A DNA stretch of 21,962 nt. It comes from a virus. The notes under the pieces are model-generated. The model did no database searches, had not been told where the DNA came from, and saw only the letters and a list, made by a program, of their open reading frames with translations. Positions 464-21,962 of the stretch are shown piece by piece (the first letter of the stretch is position 1; every line of letters starts with the position of its first letter). Position numbers and translations under genes: made by a program. The stretch is from IMG/VR virus record IMGVR_UViG_3300044470_000117, positions 1-21,962 of that record. One strand, 5' to 3'.

Positions 464-508
464 ACTTTAATAATAGTCAAAAATTATGTTATATTTAGTA
501 GAAGGCTT

Positions 509-985
509 ATGATTACCTACCAACCAGATCTCGATTCGTTTTATAAAGCCAACCATCAGGAACTGCTCGCCTGTTTCCAATCGTTGGGAGTTACTGACCG
601 CAATGAGCTCCACGATATGTCTCAGACGTTTTATGTGCAGCTTCCCGACATCATTAGGTTATACGATCCTGCCAAGCAAGTTAAGTTTTCCACTTATATT
701 TTCCAATGTGTCAAGAACTTGATTTGCGCTGTGCGGTGTAGCAGGCATGCCAGTCATGTTTACATCCAGTATAACGATGACATAGCCGACCGCGACTTAC
801 TGGCCGGGATCAGCTTGCGATTAGAGGATTTCAAATTATTTTGCAGGAGGACAGGGTCATTAGCAACTGAGCAGGTCATCAGTGAGGTCCAGTCGATGAT
901 GCAGGACCATAGGGGATTCACGGGTGTCAATTATTGTACCTATACAGAATATCGTGACAGGTTCCTTGCTGCCGAACGATTATAG
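509..985 (+). CDS. Small sigma-70 region 2-like protein, candidate phage transcription factor
   Basis: This 158-residue protein starts at ATG 509, chosen because AGAAGG at 500-505 is a ribosome binding site at suitable distance; a TTG 28 codons upstream has none. Around residues 33-75 it reads like sigma factor region 2.1-2.3: a helix ending in DIIRLYDPAKQVKFSTYIF followed by QCVKNLI, matching the family pattern of FDPxKGxKFSTYxxxxxRxxI. That part of sigma binds the RNA polymerase clamp and the -10 region. No region 4 helix-turn-helix is evident; the C-terminal 80 residues are unfamiliar. T4 gp55 shows that phages use such short sigma proteins for late transcription. Its stop overlaps the 3' end of the convergent portal gene by 6 bp. 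The assignment rests on one motif, so it could also be an unrelated helical protein. Confidence 0.5.
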   Translation: MITYQPDLDSFYKANHQELLACFQSLGVTDRNELHDMSQTFYVQLPDIIRLYDPAKQVKFSTYIFQCVKNLICAVRCSRHASHVYIQYNDDIADRDLLAGISLRLEDFKLFCRRTGSLATEQVISEVQSMMQDHRGFTGVNYCTYTEYRDRFLAAERL

Positions 986-3124
986 TTTTCTCATAGCACC
1001 CGGAGCAATTCCAGGCTGACAAAATTTCTGCACATCAATCTCGCCGTTTGGATCTATGCTGGCTAACAATCTGTCAAGACGATGATGGCTTACAATTGCG
1101 ACATTTCCGCCCTTGTGCTTGTTCAGGATATCCTGGACGGCGGATAATGATCGTTCTCGGAACTGATTAAAGCTTTCTCCCTTTGGTATTGGTTTGTCAG
1201 GAGTTGCCACATATTTTCCAATGAGTGCTTGTACGTCATCACTATCATGACCGGTGTAAACCCCCACGTCCCACGGTCTGAGCTCTTTCATTTTAGTCAC
1301 TTTAGCTCCGGAAGATTTACCGATAGCATCAGCTGTATCAGAGGCTCTTGACAAATCGCTTGTATAGATAGCGTCAAGTTTTGAATCTTTTAGCTGGCCT
1401 GCCACTCGTTTCGCATCTCCCAATCCTTTTTCGTTAAGTTTGGGGTTGCTCCAGCCGCGTATGACATGGTTAGCATTGAGGTCAGTCTCTCCGTGGCGGA
1501 CAAGGTATGCGTTTGTCCGAGTAGGCTTTTCAATATCTTGCTTGACATTCTCGGAGGATTCTTGTTTATCCATTTTAGGCTTGTCCTTTTGTTTAATACC
1601 TTCTTCAGCATATTGATACCCCTGAGCTTGTGCATGTAGTATAGCTGCCAACGTATCCTCATTGCTTGCAACATCCTTAGTTTCAATTCCAGCTTCCGTG
1701 ATAGCTCCAGATGTTGCAGAGGACATTCCGTCTGATCCTTGTTGCCCAACTTGCTGCATAGATTTTGTTCCGTCGTCTTCACGCGGCTCTTGTCCTTCAG
1801 GAATAGCCCCAGCGACATTTCCTTTGCTGCCAGTTGACAACGTTTGCACAGGTTGACCGATTTCAAACTCGTCGTCGTTGTATCCGTAGGTCCGCGAGAA
1901 ATAAGACTTTGTCAACTTGACTCCAAGCTTGGACATCATCAGGTCTATGTTGGCACGGTCAACTGTAGGAGGTTCTGATTTGTACAGTTTGAATTTAGGA
2001 AGCTTCTCGGTAGTGCCAAAGTCGTACCAGCACACCCATTCGATCAGTTGGTTCATGCTGGTTTCAATCATCCTGGCGTCTTCCTTGATGATGTCATCAC
2101 GGACTCCAGCAAGTGTTGTAGCTGCAGCAAAACTTCCGCCTTTGATTTCAGCGGACATATTATTGCCGAGGATGGCCATGTCTATCTCGCGGTCCATAAC
2201 ATCCATCCAGTCGACATAGTTTTGCACCGCTTTGGTGTCAGACATGTCAAGAGGTTTGATTTCAGTGTTCTTCGGATGTGCAACGATACCATTGGCAAAT
2301 GTCTGTTGCAGGACGTTTAACACTTCGTCAAGACGTTCTTTTTGCAAGCCGGATTCCAGCGAGACATCGATCCAGGGAGATCCATATTTCTCAACAAAAC
2401 GCATGCCGTATTCCAGGATCATGTGGCGGAACTTGACAGGCCAGTAGAGGGAGTTGAACAACGCTTCTCTTGATGCATGCGGATCATCATAACGGGGATG
2501 ATAGCGTGTGACAAGGAACTTGCGAGGCGGTAAACGTTCCCCCTGTACTTGCTCGACTTTAGTTTTCATGCGAATAGAATTGAGTTCGTCAAAGCCAAAC
2601 CATCTTGCAGCTTTTCCACGAAGGTCTGTTGGGATATATAATCCGTCTTTATTTTCCCAGATTACTTCAGTTACAGCGTAGCCATAAAACGGCGCTTGTA
2701 GCATCTCCGCTATAACTTCGTAAATGTTATACTGATCAAACATTTTCTCGATAGTTTTGAACATCCGCGATGGAGCTTCGTTTTGATCTATAGTCCATTT
2801 GAGCGACAGAGTGCCAGCTCGTCTATTTGCAAATGCCGCATGCACTCGTCCGTCTACAAGGAGTTGATCCATCTCCTCAATATTTTTACCGAGCGCAATA
2901 AGAATATCGGACTGAGTAGGTAGAAGTAAACTGGTTCTATAAAAATCCCATATAACGGCTCTGGTGGTAATTTCTGGCATGTATGGAATTTTGGACGTGA
3001 CCTGGTATCTCGGATCATTAGTAGTATCATCCGGATGAGAGAATGGATCGGGAGCCGGTGTGCTCTTGTTGGGTTGGACGTACGACGGCTCTGAGTGATC
3101 TAAATAACCCTTTTTCGCTGTCAT
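980..3124 (-). CDS. Portal protein (Mu gp29/DUF935-like) fused to a C-terminal histidine phosphatase domain
   Basis: The 714-residue product has two parts. Residues about 45-425 look like the DUF935 (Mu gp29) portal, the dodecameric ring through which DNA enters the head: ADGRVHAAF-like helix at 90-100, QAPFYGYAVTEVIW near 143-156, KYGSPWIDV at 246-254 and the acidic/glycine run around 310-350. After a Gln/Ser/Lys-rich linker (about 430-535), residues 537-714 form a phosphoglycerate mutase/histidine phosphatase domain: LVRHGET with catalytic Arg543 and His544, YTSDLSRASDTA with Arg593, the acidic Glu614 before RPWDVGVYTG, KGESFNQFRER, and VSHH with His680. All catalytic residues are in place, so activity is plausible. 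Mu gp29 is only about 510 residues, so the extra domain is the oddity. The start ATG overlaps the large-terminase stop by 4 bp (ATGA), indicating coupling. The 3' end overlaps the convergent sigma-like gene. Confidence 0.9.
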   Translation of the reverse strand: MTAKKGYLDHSEPSYVQPNKSTPAPDPFSHPDDTTNDPRYQVTSKIPYMPEITTRAVIWDFYRTSLLLPTQSDILIALGKNIEEMDQLLVDGRVHAAFANRRAGTLSLKWTIDQNEAPSRMFKTIEKMFDQYNIYEVIAEMLQAPFYGYAVTEVIWENKDGLYIPTDLRGKAARWFGFDELNSIRMKTKVEQVQGERLPPRKFLVTRYHPRYDDPHASREALFNSLYWPVKFRHMILEYGMRFVEKYGSPWIDVSLESGLQKERLDEVLNVLQQTFANGIVAHPKNTEIKPLDMSDTKAVQNYVDWMDVMDREIDMAILGNNMSAEIKGGSFAAATTLAGVRDDIIKEDARMIETSMNQLIEWVCWYDFGTTEKLPKFKLYKSEPPTVDRANIDLMMSKLGVKLTKSYFSRTYGYNDDEFEIGQPVQTLSTGSKGNVAGAIPEGQEPREDDGTKSMQQVGQQGSDGMSSATSGAITEAGIETKDVASNEDTLAAILHAQAQGYQYAEEGIKQKDKPKMDKQESSENVKQDIEKPTRTNAYLVRHGETDLNANHVIRGWSNPKLNEKGLGDAKRVAGQLKDSKLDAIYTSDLSRASDTADAIGKSSGAKVTKMKELRPWDVGVYTGHDSDDVQALIGKYVATPDKPIPKGESFNQFRERSLSAVQDILNKHKGGNVAIVSHHRLDRLLASIDPNGEIDVQKFCQPGIAPGAMRKL

Positions 3125-4584
3125 ATTTTATATCCTCTCATTGGTGAATGACCCGGAACAGAATAGCCTTGTAGTCTGTCGTCAAACGGCATGTAAGACG
3201 AGGCGTATCCCGGTATAGGTTTGTTTGGAATAATTTTCCTTGTTACAATCTTATCCGATTTTGCATCTGTCATCCTTGCCCAAAGTAAAGCTTGACTTAT
3301 TGTGTCAACCATGTCGTCGTTATTACCCAGAGGAAAAACTGTACACTGGTTAATCAATTCTTTGTTCCAAACTTCATTCAGTTTTAAGTGGACTCTTCCA
3401 CTTTGTAAATAGGTTGTGATAGATGTTGCCCGGTCCACCTTGTCACCTTGTGGATCAAATGGAGACACGGGCAATGTCTCCAGGTCATGTTGGAGGACTT
3501 GAATAAGCGACTGGCCAGATGCTTTATTTTCGATAACCACATTGTCTGGTTTGTAATTGGCTATATATTCCTTAACTTTTTCCACGAGTGTTGGGAAGTC
3601 AAGCCTACCATGCCAGCAGTCTACACACCAGAAATCTCCATCAAATAATTTGTACCACACGGTCAGAGCTGATTCGTCGTTAACAGTTTTTATTCCGAAC
3701 GCTGTGTCAATGCTTATAAATGTTTTCATTATCGTTTGCGGTTCGGGAAGTTTATCAGATGTTTTCCACCATTCCGGTTGAAAGATTTGTAGTTCTGATC
3801 TGTTCAGGAACTCTCCGTGTAACTCCTGGGCACGTAGGACTGGAGGCGTTTCGTCCTCTAACTCCTTTATTTGCTCAGGATTAAGAGTCGGATTCTCGTA
3901 GGAAGAATACTTAAATGATGCATGTTTATTCTGGTTGGGGTCTTGTCCAGCTTTGAACATCTTATAGTACTTGGATTCGCTACCGTCCTTGTCAACTGTG
4001 CCTCTGGGTGTGCCAATAAAAAAAGCCCGGGAATCTTTAAAGTCAAGTAACATGGGACTGAGATACTGTGACCACAAATCAGGTTGGTCAAACATTTGTA
4101 TGCCAGCTTCATTTACTACTATCATCCGATATCCACGACCTACAAGCAAATCAGGTCTGTCTGAGCTTCGAAATGTTATTGTACTGTTGGCTATAGTCAA
4201 CTCACGCTGTTGAGCGTTCCAGTGCCACACTTCAGGTCTAAGCTTATTTAGTATTGGTAAAAAGTAATCTTGATAATAGGATATGATTTGTCCGTAGGAT
4301 ACCTCGCACCATAATATTTTCCAGGACTGGTTTTGTTGACAGGATAAGTCTATACAAAACTGAGCTGCGCCAAATGTTTTCCCGGAACGTCTACCGCAGG
4401 ATGCTACAACATATTTTGCGGTAGTCTTCAGGAAAATATTTTCTTGGATCTCGGTATATGACAGCTCGAGAGGATTACCGTCCAGGGTTGCTGGAGCTCT
4501 CGGTATCATCGGATCCAAAACTGTCAAGGATGCTATTGATTTCGGAACCAGATTCGGTTCTTTCTTCAATTGTTTTTTTGTCAT
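3121..4584 (-). CDS. Terminase large subunit (DNA packaging ATPase/nuclease)
   Basis: This 487-residue protein has the full two-domain layout of large terminases. The ATPase domain has Walker A GRRSGKT at residues 64-70, Walker B MIVVNEA at 154-160 with Asp replaced by Asn158 and catalytic Glu159, and the coupling motif GTPRG at 191-195. The RNase H-like nuclease domain has acidic residues at expected places: Asp293 in SIDTAFG, Glu352 in VVIENKASG, and Asp424/Asp427 in NNDDMVDTI. It translocates phage DNA into the prohead through the portal and cuts it. The length is usual for the family. It lies 4 bp after the small-terminase stop and overlaps the portal start, so the three genes form a coupled leftward operon. 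The ATG has no strong ribosome binding site and probably depends on coupling. Confidence 0.96.
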   Translation of the reverse strand: MTKKQLKKEPNLVPKSIASLTVLDPMIPRAPATLDGNPLELSYTEIQENIFLKTTAKYVVASCGRRSGKTFGAAQFCIDLSCQQNQSWKILWCEVSYGQIISYYQDYFLPILNKLRPEVWHWNAQQRELTIANSTITFRSSDRPDLLVGRGYRMIVVNEAGIQMFDQPDLWSQYLSPMLLDFKDSRAFFIGTPRGTVDKDGSESKYYKMFKAGQDPNQNKHASFKYSSYENPTLNPEQIKELEDETPPVLRAQELHGEFLNRSELQIFQPEWWKTSDKLPEPQTIMKTFISIDTAFGIKTVNDESALTVWYKLFDGDFWCVDCWHGRLDFPTLVEKVKEYIANYKPDNVVIENKASGQSLIQVLQHDLETLPVSPFDPQGDKVDRATSITTYLQSGRVHLKLNEVWNKELINQCTVFPLGNNDDMVDTISQALLWARMTDAKSDKIVTRKIIPNKPIPGYASSYMPFDDRLQGYSVPGHSPMRGYKI

Positions 4585-4588
4585 CTAT

Positions 4589-4978
4589 TCACTCTATTTT
4601 TGCGGTAACTTCTTGTCCAACTTTATTCAATGTTTTTCTAATGACTTCCAGTTTTAACCCGCCGGTCATACTGAGTTGGTTTTGTTGTAGTTGGAATCTT
4701 TCCCCTTCTTTCCAACGTTCTCCGTCATAAGCTTTTAACCAGCGCCAAATCCAAAGATCGTCGCCTTTATCGATTTTTTCCTTTACTTTGCTTTCTACGT
4801 ACTCCCGGAAGGACACAATAAGGGTTTTTATGGCCGAATTAAACTCAGGATCATGGTCCATCCAGTTATGATATGTTTGCAAAACGATACCCGTTGCTCT
4901 ACAACTATTCGATATTTGTCCGAAATTTTTTTCGAATATCTCTAAAAAGGCTATTTTCTTCTTTTTTTCAATTGCCAT
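4589..4978 (-). CDS. Terminase small subunit-like DNA-binding protein
   Basis: The 129-residue protein starts with a lysine-rich stretch and then has FLEIFEKNFGQISNSCRATGIVLQTYHNWMDHDPEFNSAI split over residues 11-50, the helix-turn-helix pattern (N-x-S-x-x-C-x-x-x-G-I-x-x-x-T-Y-x-x-W-x-x-x-D-P-x-F) found in small terminases and phBC6A51-type DNA-binding proteins. The rest is helical and charged, with GDDLWIWRWLKAYDGERWKEG at 72-92, as in related small terminases where this region oligomerises. It should recognise the packaging site and recruit the large subunit encoded just downstream. The start is supported by AGGAG (+ strand 4985-4989) at good spacing. It is the first gene of the leftward operon and sits behind the divergent promoter region. 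Confidence 0.85.
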   Translation of the reverse strand: MAIEKKKKIAFLEIFEKNFGQISNSCRATGIVLQTYHNWMDHDPEFNSAIKTLIVSFREYVESKVKEKIDKGDDLWIWRWLKAYDGERWKEGERFQLQQNQLSMTGGLKLEVIRKTLNKVGQEVTAKIE

Positions 4979-5165: not shown

Positions 5166-5708
5166 ATGTCGTTTAATACTCAAAATAATTTTTCAATTTC
5201 CAGTCAGTGCGGCGAGGATCTCAGTCTCAACCAATTCCAATTTGTAACCCTAGCTTATGACAATACAATCTATGCAGCCCGTAACACCGACATCGCAAAC
5301 GGCGTTCTTACCGATGTCCCCTCGCTGGGTCCGCTTGGGCAATATTCCGGAACTGTGGTAACCGAAGGAATAACCAGGATCTGCGTTTTAAATGCTTACC
5401 CAATCGGCACTTTTTTAGTCCCTTATTTTGACGGGACAACTTATGGCGTAGGCGCATCAGTAGCTGATGCAGGATCACAAGATCAATACATCAGAGCCAG
5501 GACGTTACAGGCCTCTACCGCCGCATACGATGTTGTCGCTTGCGAGTTGCTTTACAATCCTTACGGGGACGCAACTATAGCAACGATGGTGTCAGTATCC
5601 GCAGCTGCCGGGCTTGGAATAACAGGCCCACATGTTTCCCCCACATCATACGTTTGGGCAAATTTGAATGGCGTGACTGGTGTATTTCAGTTTTACGCAA
5701 CAGCTTAA
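5166..5708 (+). CDS. Capsid decoration-like protein (DUF2190 type), copy 1
   Basis: The 180-residue protein is rich in small and beta-forming residues, and residues about 22-130 follow the pattern of phage head decoration proteins of the DUF2190 kind: QFQFVTLAYDNTIYAA, TEGITRICVLNAYPIGTFL, YIRARTLQASTAAYDVVACELL. It is a clear paralogue of the protein at 7650-8105, which shares QFRFVTL, VDGVTRVEVNTALPVGTIV and LQPSTAAGDVVACKLL. A 45-residue C-terminal extension (from about 136) containing GITGPH and NGVTGVFQFY is absent from the other copy. The start has GGAG at 5154-5157, 8 nt upstream. It is the first gene of the rightward structural operon. The exact role (decoration, head fibre, spike) is inferred from family and position. 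Confidence 0.7.
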   Translation: MSFNTQNNFSISSQCGEDLSLNQFQFVTLAYDNTIYAARNTDIANGVLTDVPSLGPLGQYSGTVVTEGITRICVLNAYPIGTFLVPYFDGTTYGVGASVADAGSQDQYIRARTLQASTAAYDVVACELLYNPYGDATIATMVSVSAAAGLGITGPHVSPTSYVWANLNGVTGVFQFYATA

Positions 5709-5718
5709 GGATTGACAG

Positions 5719-7590
5719 ATGCCGTTTCGTACAGAACATTCGATTCGTGTTAAGTCACCTACTGGATATGATAAGTATCGCAGGGGTAATTTAACAACTG
5801 GAGTGGATGCGATATTTGGTATAAAGAGCGGGAAGAGCGAGATACAAGCTCTTCGTTTTGACAAGAGCAAGTTCAGTCCCGAGGAAGCAAGAGCTTGGGC
5901 AGATAAGCACGGATACAAAGGCTCTTTACACAAGGCTAAACCTAAGTCTGATCATGACGAAGGAGCACCGGCCCCAGCAGGGTCGGCAGGTATAACAGTT
6001 ACTACGGCTTTAAGAAAAGATTTATCTGTACAATATGCTGAGGATCAGAATGAAATAGACGATGACTTCGGAGAAGACTTGATCGACTTACTATGTGACA
6101 AGGATTTTGATTTTAAGGAGTTGCAGAAGGGTTTAGAGCACGAGCTCGAGCATACATCGGATAGAGCGATGGCTCTTAAGTTTGCATTCGATCATTTGGA
6201 AGAACATTCTAATTACTATAGTGTTTTAAACAAAGCTGAAAAAACTATGGATCATGCTTCTAAAACTGTGCATAAAGAATTTGAGAAAGAACCAGATCCA
6301 GAAGATCCCAATGAATTAGATGAAGATGAATTTGAGGTAGAGGCTTTCTCTACAGGAACTCATACAAGCTCTGAAGGAGAGGTTTGTTCGTACTCTTCGG
6401 AAGATCTTGATAACATAGTAAAAAAATATGAGGAAACTAAAAATACAGATCCAGCTCCTGTTTGTCTCGGGCATCCTGCGGACTCGAGTCCTGCATACGC
6501 TTGGATTAAGAGTGCAAAAAGGGTTGGAGATAAATTGGTGGTTAAACTCCACCAAATGAATGAAAATTTTGTTGATGCCCTAAAAAATCATGCTTATAAG
6601 AAAGTTAGTTTAAGTTTATATGATTCTGAAGATGGTCCACGGATCAGGCATTTGGCTTGGCTCGGAGCGCAACCTCCCGCTGTCAGAGGACTTGCGATAC
6701 CCGCTATAGCTTTTGCATCATCCGATAAGTATAAAACTTTCACAGAGGAGTTCGAGATGTCTAAAGATACAGTCGACGTTAAGGATTTGACCAAGAAACT
6801 TGCTTGGTACGATAAGCTTTTCAATATGTTTAAATTGGAAGTAAACAAAGATTATGCTGAAGAGCCAGCTAAAGTTGAAGCTGTAGCTAAGCCGGAAGAG
6901 ACTAAGGTTGTCAACCACTCGGATGACAAGTCCGTTCAGGCCAAAGAGCAGGGCTCGGGAGATAATCAGGCAGGAAGTATTGTGGAAAAAGAGACCAAGG
7001 ATCCTGGCGAAGCAACCAGCGCTTCTGCTTCAGAAAAAGAAGTCAAAGCTAAAGTCACAAATGAAGCTAATGAGGCACAGGATGAACTTTCCAAACTGAA
7101 AACTGAGAATGCTAGTTTGAAGAGTGAACTTGAAATACTCAGAGCTGCTCTGAATGTAAAGAATCATACAGAAGCAGAAGCTTCTAAAAAGTCTGACAGG
7201 CTGTTCTGCGAAGATCTTGTCAAACAGGGCAAGTTGAGACCTGCAGATCTGGATATGACTATCCTCAACTTAGAGGCTCGTTCGAATCTTGACGAGATAC
7301 GAAATTATTCCGAAGAGCAGTCGGCGGCAAAGAAATATCGTGAGGCTCTTACTGCTGCCCCCAAGCTTGTGGAATTTGGCGAGTTTCCCCAGGTCCCCAA
7401 CATGACGACAGCGGCAAGTATCCCGGATGTTGGCATGGCTGAGTATCTTGAGAAAGCCATAAAAGACAAAATGGCAGCTACGCCAAATATCAGTTACTGG
7501 GATAGCATGAAGGAGTGTTATGCAGAAGCTCAGAAGAAAGATCCTGTAAAATTTGCTGAATATATGAAGGCATTAATTCCGAGTCGTTAA
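5719..7590 (+). CDS. Multidomain head maturation protease (Mu gpI-like) fused to scaffold
   Basis: This 623-residue protein has several parts. Residues 6-66 (HSIRVKSP...RFDKSKFSPEEARAWADKHG) match a short module common at the front of phage head proteins. Residues about 138-176 (ELEHTSDRAMALKFAFDHLE) resemble the DUF5661 domain. Residues about 206-335 match the Mu gpI protease: STGTHTSSEGEVCSYSSEDL, VCLGHPADSSPAYAWIKS, AYKKVSLSLY, and HLAWLGAQPPAVRGL. His252 and Ser297 or Ser299 are the likely catalytic residues, by analogy with other prohead proteases. Residues about 350-545 are acidic/lysine-rich with a heptad coiled coil near 452-478 (ELSKLKTENASLKSELEIL), as in scaffolding regions removed during maturation. 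It probably shapes the prohead and then digests the scaffold. AAGGA lies upstream of the start. It sits between the two decoration paralogues. Confidence 0.85.
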   Translation: MPFRTEHSIRVKSPTGYDKYRRGNLTTGVDAIFGIKSGKSEIQALRFDKSKFSPEEARAWADKHGYKGSLHKAKPKSDHDEGAPAPAGSAGITVTTALRKDLSVQYAEDQNEIDDDFGEDLIDLLCDKDFDFKELQKGLEHELEHTSDRAMALKFAFDHLEEHSNYYSVLNKAEKTMDHASKTVHKEFEKEPDPEDPNELDEDEFEVEAFSTGTHTSSEGEVCSYSSEDLDNIVKKYEETKNTDPAPVCLGHPADSSPAYAWIKSAKRVGDKLVVKLHQMNENFVDALKNHAYKKVSLSLYDSEDGPRIRHLAWLGAQPPAVRGLAIPAIAFASSDKYKTFTEEFEMSKDTVDVKDLTKKLAWYDKLFNMFKLEVNKDYAEEPAKVEAVAKPEETKVVNHSDDKSVQAKEQGSGDNQAGSIVEKETKDPGEATSASASEKEVKAKVTNEANEAQDELSKLKTENASLKSELEILRAALNVKNHTEAEASKKSDRLFCEDLVKQGKLRPADLDMTILNLEARSNLDEIRNYSEEQSAAKKYREALTAAPKLVEFGEFPQVPNMTTAASIPDVGMAEYLEKAIKDKMAATPNISYWDSMKECYAEAQKKDPVKFAEYMKALIPSR

Positions 7591-7649: not shown

Positions 7650-8105
7650 ATGGCTTACGCAATTAGTGATGTAAGGACAATTTCAGCTCAGACGACAGCT
7701 GATCTGTCGGGTTCTCAGTTTCGTTTCGTTACTCTTAAGACCGATATGACCGTTGATGTCTGTGGAGCAACTGGGATGGCTCTTGGTATTTTGGAAAACC
7801 AGCCGTCCGCACCTATTCTGTCAACGTACGGAAGCACAGGTGTTTCCGGTTATGTTGCTGGTCAGTATGCGTGCACAGTTTCAGTTGACGGTGTAACAAG
7901 AGTTGAGGTTAATACAGCTCTTCCTGTGGGCACAATTGTTGGCCCATCCATAGCTAACGACGGCGTTGCGGCAGGCATTGGAGCTACAGGTTCGTATGGG
8001 TATTATTATTTTTCACGTGCTATCCTATTACAGCCCTCTACGGCTGCAGGCGATGTTGTGGCTTGCAAACTATTAGGCCCTGCAATGGGTAGCCCAGCTG
8101 CTTAA
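7650..8105 (+). CDS. Capsid decoration-like protein (DUF2190 type), copy 2
   Basis: The 151-residue product is a paralogue of the protein at 5166-5708: the shared blocks are QFRFVTLKTDMTVD, DGVTRVEVNTALPVGTIV and the closing ILLQPSTAAGDVVACKLLGPA. The composition (Gly, Ala, Thr, Val) and the block order agree with small head decoration proteins that sit on the capsid surface. It ends soon after the common core, without the C-terminal extension of copy 1. A strong AAAGGAG at 7636-7642 precedes the ATG, consistent with high expression. It lies directly before the major capsid gene, the usual place for a decoration gene, so I regard this copy as the more typical one. Confidence 0.75.
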   Translation: MAYAISDVRTISAQTTADLSGSQFRFVTLKTDMTVDVCGATGMALGILENQPSAPILSTYGSTGVSGYVAGQYACTVSVDGVTRVEVNTALPVGTIVGPSIANDGVAAGIGATGSYGYYYFSRAILLQPSTAAGDVVACKLLGPAMGSPAA

Positions 8106-10366: not shown

Positions 10367-11848
10367 ATGTCAAGCATTAATGTTATAACGGATCAAATCC
10401 CTAATACTCGCGTTCCTGGTTTTTACGGGCAGGAGAACGTGTCAAACGCTCTCCAAGGATTATCACCCCTTGTAAACAAAGTGGTTATAATTGCTCAGGA
10501 GACTTCCAGCGGATCGGTCCCCGCTAATACTCCTACTAAAGTGTTTGACAGTGGATCGGCCCAGCTTTATTTCGGTGCGGGATCTATCGCTCATAAAGCC
10601 GTAGAAGCCGCTATCGAAGCTAATCCTAATGTCAATTTGACCGTTCTTCCGCTTGCCGATGGTATCGGTTCGGTAAAAGCGGCAGGATATTTTGGATTGA
10701 CTGGGGCATGCACGTCTGCAGGATCCATTAATTACTGGATAGGTGATGAAAATGTTTCCGTTTCAGTCAGCGCAAATGACACGGCTATTACAGTGTGTAA
10801 CAACGCTAAGCTTGCAATATCAAAAATTATAAGTGAGCTCCCAGTAACAGCAGGTGTCACCGGGACAAATAAAATCGAACTTACAGCAAAAAACGGCGGA
10901 ACTCTTGGCAATCAAATAGCGTTATCTTACAAGGCATCTCCCAGTCTTGCGGGTCTTACACTTAGCGAAACAGGAATGTTTGGCGGATTAACTGATCCTG
11001 CGGTTGAGGATTATGGTACAGCCGGGACAGCGCTTAATGCTATCGTCGCTGGTGGATACAATGTTATATGTTCCACATTGCCTGATGCGACAAATCTTGG
11101 TAAAATCAAAACCATGATAGATTATATCAGCGGTCCCGTGGAACAGCGTCCAGCGGTTGGGGTATTTGCTTATACTGATCTTGTTGGAACATACGCCGCA
11201 GTGGAAACTCTTTGTGGTACGACTATCAATGATGGTCGTATAACGTGCGGATACGCTTCTTATGCTTCGGATAATTTAGCCAAATCACCTCAGTTTGAAT
11301 TGGCGGCTTCGTACGCGGCCCTAATAGGTGCTGCAACAGATCCAGTTCTACCGTTCAGCGGGGATGTTTTAGAGGATATGGCTCCTCCATCAGTTATGGA
11401 CCGGTTTACATTTGCTCAGAAGGACGATCTTCTTCAAAATGGTGTAACTCCTCTTTATGTTGCGGCTGGTGAGCAGCTTGCTATTTGTCGTGCGGTATCT
11501 ACTTACACGACCAATTCGAGCTCGGTCCCGGACGCCACGTTGCTGGACATCAATACTTACATGACTCTTGACTATGTAAGAGAGCAGGTACGTGAAAGGA
11601 TCACGACAGTTTTTGCGAAGGCCAAACTGAATGCTCGAACGATTAAGCTTGTCAGGTCGGAAGTTATCGACGTGTTGTATACGTTGGAGCAAGCGCAAAT
11701 CGTTCAGAATGTCAAGCAGTATGAGGCAGGTGTAATAGTTGAGCAGGACTTGACGGATGTTACAAGACTTGACATAGCTATTCCGACAAATATCGTGGTT
11801 GGCTTGGAAGTTATCGGAGCCTCGTTTAATTTAATTTTGGGAGTCTAA
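10367..11848 (+). CDS. Tail sheath protein (Mu gpL-like)
   Basis: The 493-residue product has the length of Mu gpL (495). It starts with IPNTRVPGFYGQENVSNA, the usual sheath opening around the conserved P-G-x-Y-x-E region, and has the variable insertion domain in the middle. The conserved C-terminal sheath domain is visible in DYVREQVRERITTVF, near 412-426, followed by VRSEVIDVLYTLEQAQIVQ and VEQDLTDVTRLDIAI at 458-472. This C-terminal part forms the handshake that links sheath subunits. The protein makes the contractile outer layer of the tail. A strong AAAAGGAG precedes the start. The sequence at 458-470 recurs almost exactly in the gene at 17784. Confidence 0.93.
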   Translation: MSSINVITDQIPNTRVPGFYGQENVSNALQGLSPLVNKVVIIAQETSSGSVPANTPTKVFDSGSAQLYFGAGSIAHKAVEAAIEANPNVNLTVLPLADGIGSVKAAGYFGLTGACTSAGSINYWIGDENVSVSVSANDTAITVCNNAKLAISKIISELPVTAGVTGTNKIELTAKNGGTLGNQIALSYKASPSLAGLTLSETGMFGGLTDPAVEDYGTAGTALNAIVAGGYNVICSTLPDATNLGKIKTMIDYISGPVEQRPAVGVFAYTDLVGTYAAVETLCGTTINDGRITCGYASYASDNLAKSPQFELAASYAALIGAATDPVLPFSGDVLEDMAPPSVMDRFTFAQKDDLLQNGVTPLYVAAGEQLAICRAVSTYTTNSSSVPDATLLDINTYMTLDYVREQVRERITTVFAKAKLNARTIKLVRSEVIDVLYTLEQAQIVQNVKQYEAGVIVEQDLTDVTRLDIAIPTNIVVGLEVIGASFNLILGV

Positions 11849-19279: not shown

Positions 19280-20251
19280 ATGGCTTATTACAATAATGGA
19301 TATCAGATACCAGATCTGGGTGACCAGTCTTGGCCATTTATCAACGACACTATGGATAAAATTACAAATGTTCTTCCTCCGGAAGGATCCACGTTTGTAA
19401 CTACTCAACATAACCACGGTAACATTACTACTCCAGCCGGGGTATCAGTTGTAAATGTGCTTGGAAGCGGATCAACAGGAATTGTTAATCTCCCCAACAT
19501 CCCGGTTAACAGGTATCTCGCAACAGATGCGGGGCATAATATTGTAGGAGTTACAGGACCGTCAGGATCAGGCGGGGCAGGTATAACAGGAACGCCTAGC
19601 GTTTTGGCCATGTACGGACCAGACGGAAAAAGTCTTGCTAATAGCTTGGCCTATGTAACTCCGATGGGTGGGTTTGCCGTCGCTGTGCCGGGGGTAACAG
19701 GACTGTTGACGTTGACCGCAAATGAGTCCGTACTATTAGAGTCTTCTGCAGCAAGTGCGAATGTCATTGGTCAAGAGGTTTACATAGACAGTTTCAACGG
19801 ATCAGCTCTCAACGCTTACATCAGCCTGTTCCCCACTCCCGCAACTCCGGCCGCGTCTAACTGCGTGTCAATGATATTAGCTTCAGTTTCTGGAGTAAAT
19901 CTTACGGCGGGGGGAGTGACAAGTCTTTATACCGTCCTGGCAGGACAGAACGCTATTGTAACTTCCGTTATAGTGAGATGTACTAATGCGACATCAGTTA
20001 TCGGTATACCGTCCGCATCGGTTATATCCGTATCATCGCCCACTTTTGAAATATTTGATTCACGAACGTTAGGATGGCTCGGTTATGATCCAACACAAAA
20101 CGCATATAGATTTGTAACCTCAATTTCTGGTGCATCTAATGATACATTCCACATTTGTACAGCGGGAGAAACGATTCAATTTTCTGTTGATGTTCCAGGT
20201 ACAGCATCAGTTTACACAGCGGCTATAGATTTATTTGGATACATTTTATAA
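19280..20251 (+). CDS. Tail fibre-like structural protein (position of Mu gp48)
   Basis: The 323-residue product takes the place after gp47, where Mu has gp48 and then the fibre gene. It is rich in Gly, Ser, Thr, Val and Ala and short of charged residues. Residues about 92-110 (VTGPSGSGGAGITGTP) are a flexible Gly-rich hinge. The C-terminal third, with QNAIVTSVIVRCTNATSVIG, WLGYDPTQNAY and TVS-type strands, looks like a beta-sandwich head domain found on phage appendages. AAGGAG precedes the ATG. I do not see the usual gp48 signature, so I call it a fibre or receptor-binding component by composition and place. The N-terminus (YNNGYQIPDLGDQSWPFIND) could attach to the baseplate. Confidence 0.6.
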   Translation: MAYYNNGYQIPDLGDQSWPFINDTMDKITNVLPPEGSTFVTTQHNHGNITTPAGVSVVNVLGSGSTGIVNLPNIPVNRYLATDAGHNIVGVTGPSGSGGAGITGTPSVLAMYGPDGKSLANSLAYVTPMGGFAVAVPGVTGLLTLTANESVLLESSAASANVIGQEVYIDSFNGSALNAYISLFPTPATPAASNCVSMILASVSGVNLTAGGVTSLYTVLAGQNAIVTSVIVRCTNATSVIGIPSASVISVSSPTFEIFDSRTLGWLGYDPTQNAYRFVTSISGASNDTFHICTAGETIQFSVDVPGTASVYTAAIDLFGYIL

Positions 20252-20252
20252 T

Positions 20253-20903
20253 ATGATAGGAAACAGGACAGTATCCATATTAACCAGAGTAATGAATAGA
20301 TCTGAGCACCTGGCTAAAACATTACCAACCTGGTTAGCGTTAAGAGAAGTTGACGAGATAGTTATAGTCGACTGGAGCTCGAGGATACCAATTAAAATAA
20401 ATGATCCACGAGTAACAGTAATCAGAGTGGAAGGACAGAAATATTTTGAGCGAAGTGCAGCTTGGAATTTGGGTTTGGATAACAGCAACACGGATTTTAT
20501 CTTTCTTTGTGATGTGGATGTTCTTGTTCTTAGATCACCATTCGAACTAGTAAAAAAAGACGCCTCTCGTTTCTTTTATGTCAGTTTTGGCATAAGAGAG
20601 GGGACTTTTGGAAGCTGTATAATTACAAAAGAGCAAGCTAAGATAAAATTTGATGAGTCTATAAAATATTATGGAGTGGAAGACTCGAATTTCTACCTAA
20701 GGTTACAAGGAGCAGGTTTTAGAAAACTACATTGTCTTAGCACAGATTATCTCGAGCACATACATCATTCCGACGAACTAAGATACAGGGAGCAGCCAGA
20801 AAAACATGTCTACCAATATTATAAAACGGATACAATTTGCGTGCGGAGTGAATCAGAGTCTGCCCGGCTGGGAGTCTTACGACAAAGAGCTGGACATAAA
20901 TAA
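20253..20903 (+). CDS. Family 2 (GT-A) glycosyltransferase
   Basis: The 216-residue protein has the GT-A core: SILTRVMNRSEHLAKTLPTW at residues 8-27, VDEIVIVDWSS at 33-43, FERSAAWNLGLDNSNTDFIF near 65-84, the metal/sugar nucleotide motif DVD at 87-89, and YYGVEDSNFYLRLQGAGF near 139-156, which contains the ED pair typical of GT2 catalytic loops. It transfers a sugar from a nucleotide donor; the acceptor is unknown. The ATG 20253 is 1 bp after the preceding stop, with weak ribosome binding sequence. The last 98 bp overlap the next gene in another frame, so its C-terminal 33 residues (after PEKHV) may be unconstrained. It is short for the family. Its place among fibre genes suggests modification of virion proteins or host surface glycans. 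Confidence 0.8.
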   Translation: MIGNRTVSILTRVMNRSEHLAKTLPTWLALREVDEIVIVDWSSRIPIKINDPRVTVIRVEGQKYFERSAAWNLGLDNSNTDFIFLCDVDVLVLRSPFELVKKDASRFFYVSFGIREGTFGSCIITKEQAKIKFDESIKYYGVEDSNFYLRLQGAGFRKLHCLSTDYLEHIHHSDELRYREQPEKHVYQYYKTDTICVRSESESARLGVLRQRAGHK

Positions 20904-21348
20904 GCCGTTGCCGTTTGAAAATGATTCTGTTGATTTTGTCTACATTGAACATGGAATCGAACATATAAATCAGCAAAATGTGCTGAAGTTTTTGAAAGAG
21001 GTCCAACGGATTTTGAAGGTCGGAGGAGTTATACGGATAGCATTTCCCGATTTGACTCGGATACGTTTTATAGACGGGCATGCGTATAATGAAAAATTTG
21101 GCAATGGTACTACGTTGGGTGCGATGATAGCGTGTGTAACAGGGTGGGAGCACCAAAGCTGGTGGAATTGGGATTTAATGAGTGACACTTGCATGGTAGC
21201 CGGGTTATTACCAGACGACCAGAATTATAGGCCAGGTTGCAGTAAGAGAATTGATTTACAGAATCTCGAACAGCATTGGAAATTTACAGGATCCAAGGAC
21301 ATGTATGACACTGAAACCAGCATCATTGAGGCTCGCAAATGTCAATAG
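20806..21348 (+). CDS. SAM-dependent methyltransferase
   Basis: The 180-residue protein resembles small class I methyltransferases of the Methyltransf_11 kind often found beside glycosyltransferases: [20 protein letters not shown] at residues 9-28 (SAM-binding loop, first G-x-G-like segment), then [23 protein letters not shown], and [18 protein letters not shown] at 66-83. The later [17 protein letters not shown] and SIIEARK blocks are usual at the end of this family. The target could be a sugar, a lipid head group or a protein. The ATG at 20806 lies 98 bp inside the glycosyltransferase gene, and the SAM-binding motif is in the overlap, so the overlap is needed for function. AGGGAG lies about 13 nt upstream. 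Its end overlaps the next gene by 10 bp. Confidence 0.8.
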
Positions 21349-21962
21349 TTAACAGTATAGTTTGGACCATATACGATCAGGTAGTACCTCGTGACCGTCT
21401 GCCTCGAGTGGAGATATCTACAGATTCAGCAGCGTATGGTACGATCACGTTTGAGATACCCCCTCTTAATACGCTTAATAGTCTTGCCTGTAGCGTATTT
21501 AGACTCGTACCACCATCGTCTACAGAGGATCGTTGGAGCAGGATACAGCCCGATTTGTGGTCGCCCGATATCGTTAGTTTTACGTGTCAGCAATTGTCAA
21601 CGGGGATGTATCAGATTACCTGGCAGTTTGTGCCTACAACTATTCCGGGGATAGGAAATGATCAGTATTTTAGTATAGAGTTTTTTGTCAACCAAGGCCC
21701 GTCTGCTTTAGTCGCTCAAATAAGTGGTAAATTAGTTATACACACCGTTAATGATATTGACTATACTGGGATTACCGGTTGGCAAGGAGGATCATTTTCG
21801 GGGATAACGGGGCCTCAGGGATTTACAGGAGCAGTCGGAACCCAGGGGGTGCAGGGCGCAACAGGTTTAAACGGTGTAACTGGTTCAGCTGGAGTTACAG
21901 GATCAGTAGGAGTGACAGGTTCGGTGGGAGTAACAGGGTCTACTGCACCTACTGGAATACAG
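21339..21962 (+). CDS. Tail fibre with collagen-like repeats, N-terminal part (runs off the right edge)
   Basis: A frame opens with ATG 21339, overlapping the methyltransferase stop, and stays open for all 208 codons to the window end. The first 145 residues form a domain with strands ([44 protein letters not shown]) probably for attachment or assembly. From about residue 146 there is collagen-like Gly-X-Y sequence: [20 protein letters not shown] and then [14 protein letters not shown] and similar, with GVTGS repeated. Such trimeric collagen-like stretches are common in phage fibre stalks. The start has no clear ribosome binding site and is likely coupled to the preceding gene. The receptor-binding end lies outside the window. 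Confidence 0.82.

Follow-up and report, generated by a model that had tools for sequence, protein, structure and literature searches.

Positions 980–3124 of the window (the whole stretch of viral DNA analyzed, 21,962 nucleotides) hold, on the minus strand, a single unbroken frame of 714 amino acids in which a Mu-type portal protein is followed by a histidine phosphatase domain (HP). That the portal frame runs without interruption into a phosphatase domain had been claimed by the sequence-only reading, to which a stop or a frameshift in the linker would have been fatal. Neither occurs in the 714 codons, both Pfam domains lie in the one frame, and an orthologous fusion is present in a second phage (L280). 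The features of the gene and of the adjoining head genes are:

980–3124, minus strand: portal–histidine phosphatase fusion gene, 714 amino acids (frame, Pfam, orthologous fusion in L280)
1883–2872, minus strand: Portal_Mu (DUF935) domain, residues 85–414 (Pfam PF06074, E 9.5e-74; PHROG 113, portal)
1610–1834, minus strand: low-complexity portal tail, residues 431–505, ending in ...GYQY (alignment with L276)
1517–1609, minus strand: charged, lineage-specific linker, residues 506–536 (12 of 31 residues alignable to L280)
1571–1573, minus strand: in-frame internal ATG (Met518), with AAGGA 10 nt upstream
983–1516, minus strand: histidine phosphatase domain (HP, branch 1), residues ~537–714 (PF00300, AlphaFold2, fold Z 22.8 to 4ij6)
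3121–4584, minus strand: large terminase (PF17289, PF03237)
4589–4978, minus strand: small terminase (PHROG 4044, E 5e-7)
5719–7590, plus strand: head maturation protease with DUF5661 and without HP (PHROG 976, E 2.5e-50)

The portal match covers profile positions 4–335 of 336 (249 bits vs. a cut-off of 23.9), and the match of the HP to His_Phos_1 (PF00300) covers residues 540–687 (E 2.4e-38, 132 bits vs. a cut-off of 21.7). With a profile built from 11 portals, the portal of Pseudomonas phage JBD30 (Mu-type DUF935, 8rka) is found as a solved relative of the same family (E 2e-73); unlike that protein, the window portal is extended by the low-complexity tail, the linker, and the HP. The position of the portal gene beside the large terminase and the head protease is that of a Mu-type portal (PF06074), and this order is kept in the sister phages. 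The HP matches phrog_12933 (PHROGs v4, listed there with neither function nor architecture; E 2.7e-23), and all fusion proteins compared with PHROGs match this entry through their HP.

Met518 may be a second start or the relic of a separate gene. The portal tail (residues 431–505, window 1610–1834) contains a GIETKD motif, possibly a cleavage or binding site, that is kept in L276 and L277. The reading frame at 500–985 (plus strand), which converges on the fusion gene, has a weak similarity to Sigma70_r2 (E 2.8e-4) and counterparts in L280, L284, and L286. Two paralogous small proteins (5166–5708 and 7650–8105) lie on the two sides of the protease gene. A single copy is present in L276, and the copy in L280 contains repeats matching the collagen-like protein at 21339–21962 of the window. 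Genes resembling glycosyltransferase 2 and a methyltransferase (20235–21348) adjoin this collagen-like protein.

The phosphatase domain

Relatives of the HP were gathered by degenerate motif patterns and alignments, and residues were counted in 64 non-redundant phage relatives. The positions of interest, all on the minus strand, are:

1493–1498, minus strand: catalytic Arg543-His544 of the RHG motif (543–545); Arg in 61/64 and His in 64/64 relatives
1346–1348, minus strand: catalytic Arg593; 64/64 relatives
1274–1276, minus strand: Pro617 of LRPWDVG, at the position of the PhoE catalytic Glu (alignment to PhoE 1h2e)
1175–1177, minus strand: invariant Glu650 of GES; Glu in 64/64 relatives and in PhoE too
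1085–1087, minus strand: catalytic His680, in VSHH (678–681); 62/64 relatives, two fragments stopping earlier

All catalytic residues had been credited to the domain in the sequence-only reading. The assignment stands for Arg543, His544, Arg593, and His680, but not for Glu614, which is Glu in only 5 of the 64 relatives; the acid of B. stearothermophilus PhoE, which we take to be Glu83 (in REIHLG), aligns instead with Pro617. At position 617, the relatives have P (41), S (12), A (6), T (3), E (1), or D (1). Glu650 may or may not be the catalytic acid of the window HP. A loss of catalytic residues in relatives, which would have counted against that reading, is not what the counts give, and the Arg and His are kept across the phage relatives. 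In the HP fusions examined, the catalytic residues are likewise retained, with two exceptions (in L247 the first Arg is replaced by Ser, and L238 is cut). Because the usual catalytic acid is missing, phosphatase activity of the HP is likely, not certain.

The structure prediction that had been called for gives a histidine phosphatase fold. The AlphaFold2 model of the domain (19 sequences; pLDDT 95.5, pTM 0.89) has phosphoserine phosphatase 4ij6 as its closest solved fold (Z 22.8, 2.0 Å, 175 residues), with PhoE 1h2e (Z 22.2) and the mycobacterial glucosyl-3-phosphoglycerate phosphatase 4qih (Z 21.5) as further near folds; most mutases rank below the branch-1 phosphatases. A fold search of BFVD with the HP returned no portal protein among the best matches. 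With PhoE (1h2e) and Hydrogenobacter phosphoserine phosphatase 1 (4ij5/4ij6), the HP shares the fold (Z 22–23), the RHG motif, the second Arg, and the C-terminal His; unlike these enzymes, it has Pro for the usual catalytic Glu, in the motif LRPW[DN]xG of its phage-specific clade, and sits on a phage head protein. Profile, fold, RHG, second Arg, and C-terminal His all place it in branch 1 of the histidine phosphatase superfamily (PF00300). The Glu after the second Arg by which PhoE and cofactor-dependent phosphoglycerate mutase are recognized is replaced by Pro617 in the window and occurs in 1 of the 64 relatives, which rules out filing the HP as either enzyme. The substrate is not deducible from the common fold.

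Carriers of the phosphatase in sister phages

The closest phages of the same gene order were found via alignments of the terminase and the portal. Among them, L280 has a portal–HP protein of 699 amino acids, 56% identical along its length to the window fusion (portal core 68%, HP 51%, linker unalignable), with no Met in the linker matching Met518. In L276, a portal of 499 amino acids (66% identical) has its stop codon right after ...GYQY, the last residue preceding the window linker. Since L276 stops at this point and L280 keeps the fusion, residues 506–714 are, as judged from these alignments, a clean C-terminal addition maintained in a second lineage.

The carrier varies among the other sisters. 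The contig L243 (shared with L278 and L288) is syntenic, with small and large terminases and a portal without HP; its protease of 940 amino acids is of the window type (DUF5661 and PHROG 976) and has the HP inserted after the first ~80 residues. In L289, the HP is N-terminal to the same type of protease. In L281 (5887–8238), a MuF domain occupies the C-terminus of the portal, where the window portal carries the HP. In L276 and L277, both partial contigs, there is no HP in the head genes seen. The large terminases of L280 (3635–6001) and L283 (3581–5905), of 775–789 amino acids, contain an intein-like Hint domain after the nuclease domain.

In a 32-row tree of the HP, the window and L280 are sisters (98/85), L243 joins them (92/89), and L289 falls elsewhere; a single clade of the four is not rejected (p 0.20). 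Before L280 was added, the window and L243 were closest to each other (98/91), and an 88-row tree does not resolve that pair. Because L289 falls elsewhere and yet the four-member clade is not rejected, the HP may have been transferred within the lineage or captured repeatedly.

Carriers of the phosphatase in other phages

A search for the same fusion in other DUF935 portals, as the sequence-only reading had proposed, leads, besides L280, to a distant second Portal_Mu protein (L029). A C-terminal HP of the same phage clade occurs also on Phage_portal_3 (L050, L230, and L238), on Phage_portal_2 (L060), on SU10_portal (L208), and in L093 on what is probably an HK97-type portal (36.9 bits, below the cut-off of 39.1). 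In L044 and L236, the HP is joined to a match of the C-terminal part of a portal family, and in L044 the remainder of the portal is the upstream gene. A single clade of the portal fusions (six held together) is rejected (p-AU 1.06e-5), from which it follows, on this tree test, that portal–HP fusions arose more than once.

The proteases form a second group of carriers. The HP is N-terminal to XkdF-type proteases in L059, L074, L228, L235, and L247, with a NUDIX domain between HP and protease in the single polypeptide of L074, and N-terminal to DUF2213 in L094. Separate HP genes are found between portal and protease in L055, where the start is at most 10 bases away from the last codon of the portal, and between terminase and portal in L042. 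Those of L017, L024, L026–L028, and L036 have an N-terminal cysteine-rich stretch, and that of L047 has a HIPIP-like C-terminus. In the phage record PseuP_222, a histidine phosphatase gene lies in the early region, off the head proteins.

Giant proteins carry the HP as well: with LPD38 and a P-loop Zeta-type kinase in the polyvalent protein of L014, with ART-PolyVal (below its cut-off) in L054, and with a 2H (2′-5′ RNA ligase) domain in L117. Phage proteins of 2500–3000 amino acids in L241, L246, L248, L249, and L252 have the HP near residue 1300–1500; DUF7178 is present in both that were scanned (L248 and L252). In L240 (4360–7110), one chain of 917 amino acids combines the HP with a LigD 3′-phosphoesterase and an ATP-dependent DNA ligase. 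The protein at 11426–12697 of L015 resembles a ligase C-terminus followed by the HP, the ligase part being without Pfam confirmation.

Searches of viral contigs for close relatives gave no match with either the HP alone or the portal alone. When genome contigs were scanned with the HP, the matches listed were mostly ordinary cellular phosphatases, and after a filter for long frames or PW motifs no LRPW-type member was among them. By tblastn, none of 50,697 phage records covers 80% of the fusion, so the fusion is not tied to a cultured phage or host.

Probable placement in the head and possible role

In the portal of JBD30, the capsid encloses crown and wing, and the clip projects from it (PMC11445458, cryo-EM); in that of P22, the C-terminal domains form a barrel that is thought to point inward (PMC4992974). 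The fused HP is most likely in the capsid lumen, because homology to the JBD30 portal (PMC11445458) puts the portal C-terminus on the lumen side. The sequence-only reading had offered two placements, around the channel or inside the head, and the second is the likelier. The location rests on homology, since the full-length fusion reached only pLDDT 40.8 with AlphaFold2. For the portal C-terminus, the prohead protease, and the packaged polyvalent protein, the common denominator is, on our analysis, the inside of the head.

We therefore regard it as rather probable that the HP is an enzymatic cargo of the phage head that acts on a small phosphorylated compound after release or injection; location, packaging, delivery, activity, and substrate are what we infer here. 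A catalytically competent HP of the phage-specific clade would be carried in the head, with the fusion to the portal C-terminus anchoring up to 12 copies at the lumenal face of the portal ring. Other phages have the domain in other settings: attached to the head maturation protease, encoded by a gene of its own next to the portal, or built into giant polyvalent proteins. Early in infection, the HP would be released, or injected with the DNA, and would hydrolyze a nucleotide, a nucleotide derivative, or a sugar phosphate. This substrate is most likely on domain association only. Portals are normally not ejected, so injection of the HP would need cleavage or another route.

Enzymes on head proteins are a described theme. 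In the survey of phage polyvalent proteins by Iyer et al. (2017; PMC5512222), PBECR, 2H, InPase, and lysozyme domains are fused to portal or MuF (a portal-fused InPase is that of Burkholderia virus BcepF1), and effectors fused to head proteins are found also within giant polyvalent proteins and are predicted to enter the particle and to be injected. Fusions of Nudix domains with MuF, with portals, and with the capsid serine peptidase were reported later (Iyer et al. 2022; PMC9503650). The HP resembles the former effectors as a small enzyme on a portal or head protein that recurs in giant polyvalent proteins, but it is a histidine phosphatase; it resembles the Nudix fusions in its set of carriers and in the polypeptide shared in L074, but differs in fold and chemistry. 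Two criteria of the polyvalent class of Iyer et al., an enzyme on portal, MuF, or head protease and the same domain in giant polyvalent proteins, apply to it. The main text of PMC5512222 contains none of the terms "histidine phosphatase," "phosphoglycerate," "phosphatase," or "PGAM," and that of PMC9503650 mentions neither histidine phosphatase nor phosphoglycerate mutase. A literature search for a phage histidine phosphatase fused to a portal gave nothing relevant in open-access papers, which is weak evidence of absence. The sequence-only reading knew of no established role for such a fusion; it is not an isolated case, enzymes on portals, MuF, and head proteases being already described, though neither survey names the histidine phosphatase. 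The kind is known; this member, and the range of portal families to which it extends, appear to be new within the open-access papers covered.

A more specific proposal, which we consider possible and hold with little confidence, is that these proteins form an unnamed, widespread class of virion-delivered phosphatases, carried by turns on portals, maturation proteases, and polyvalent proteins, that would disarm host defense by hydrolyzing a phosphorylated nucleotide signal or its product. Nudix, joined to the HP in the one polypeptide of L074, would then possibly be its partner in a series of reactions.

It is unlikely that the HP acts in the producing cell, when heads are assembled or DNA is packaged, and is not delivered; its target there might be a phosphorylated protein of head or host, or nucleotides close to the motor. 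The carriers, portal and maturation protease, do both act in assembly, and separate copies lie within the terminase–portal–protease block; but the HP is missing from the head genes seen on the partial contigs of L276 and L277, so that it seems dispensable for the assembly of this phage type, and giant polyvalent proteins that have ART, Zeta, and LPD38 domains carry it too. Rather improbable is a nucleic-acid end phosphatase that would act on incoming genome ends or on cleaved tRNA, in end healing and sealing. The chain of L240, with LigD-type 3′-phosphoesterase and ATP-dependent DNA ligase, agrees with such a function, as do the Zeta-type kinase of L014 and the 2H domain of L117, but most HP copies have no such partner and the nearest folds are small-molecule phosphatases. 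To our knowledge, a function as polynucleotide end phosphatase is not established for any histidine phosphatase.

There is little to recommend an incidental fusion, in which the functional product would be a free enzyme started at Met518 or the HP would be a fold merely decorating the portal. The AAGGA upstream of Met518 and the separate gene straight after the portal in L055 are in its favor, and Met518 with AAGGA hints at an origin of the HP as a downstream gene of its own, the state still found in L055. But L280 retains the fusion with no such Met in its linker, so what is conserved is not a free product; C-terminal HP fusions recur across several portal families, and mere decoration would not need the conserved catalytic Arg and His. 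An assembly or sequencing error that joined two adjacent genes is conceivable for a window that is a single viral contig, but has practically no chance, given that the independent contig L280 encodes this fusion in a protein of 56% identity and that the architecture recurs in other portal families.

With this fusion, a histidine phosphatase joins the few enzymes known to be fused to phage head proteins. The sister phages amount to a natural experiment: with a constant gene order, the HP is fused to the portal in some and to the protease in others, a MuF domain takes its place in one, and the head genes seen in others have none. This pattern fits selection for having the HP inside the head and not for a particular point of attachment; with it, the general question of portal-anchored cargo can be tested directly within one phage type.
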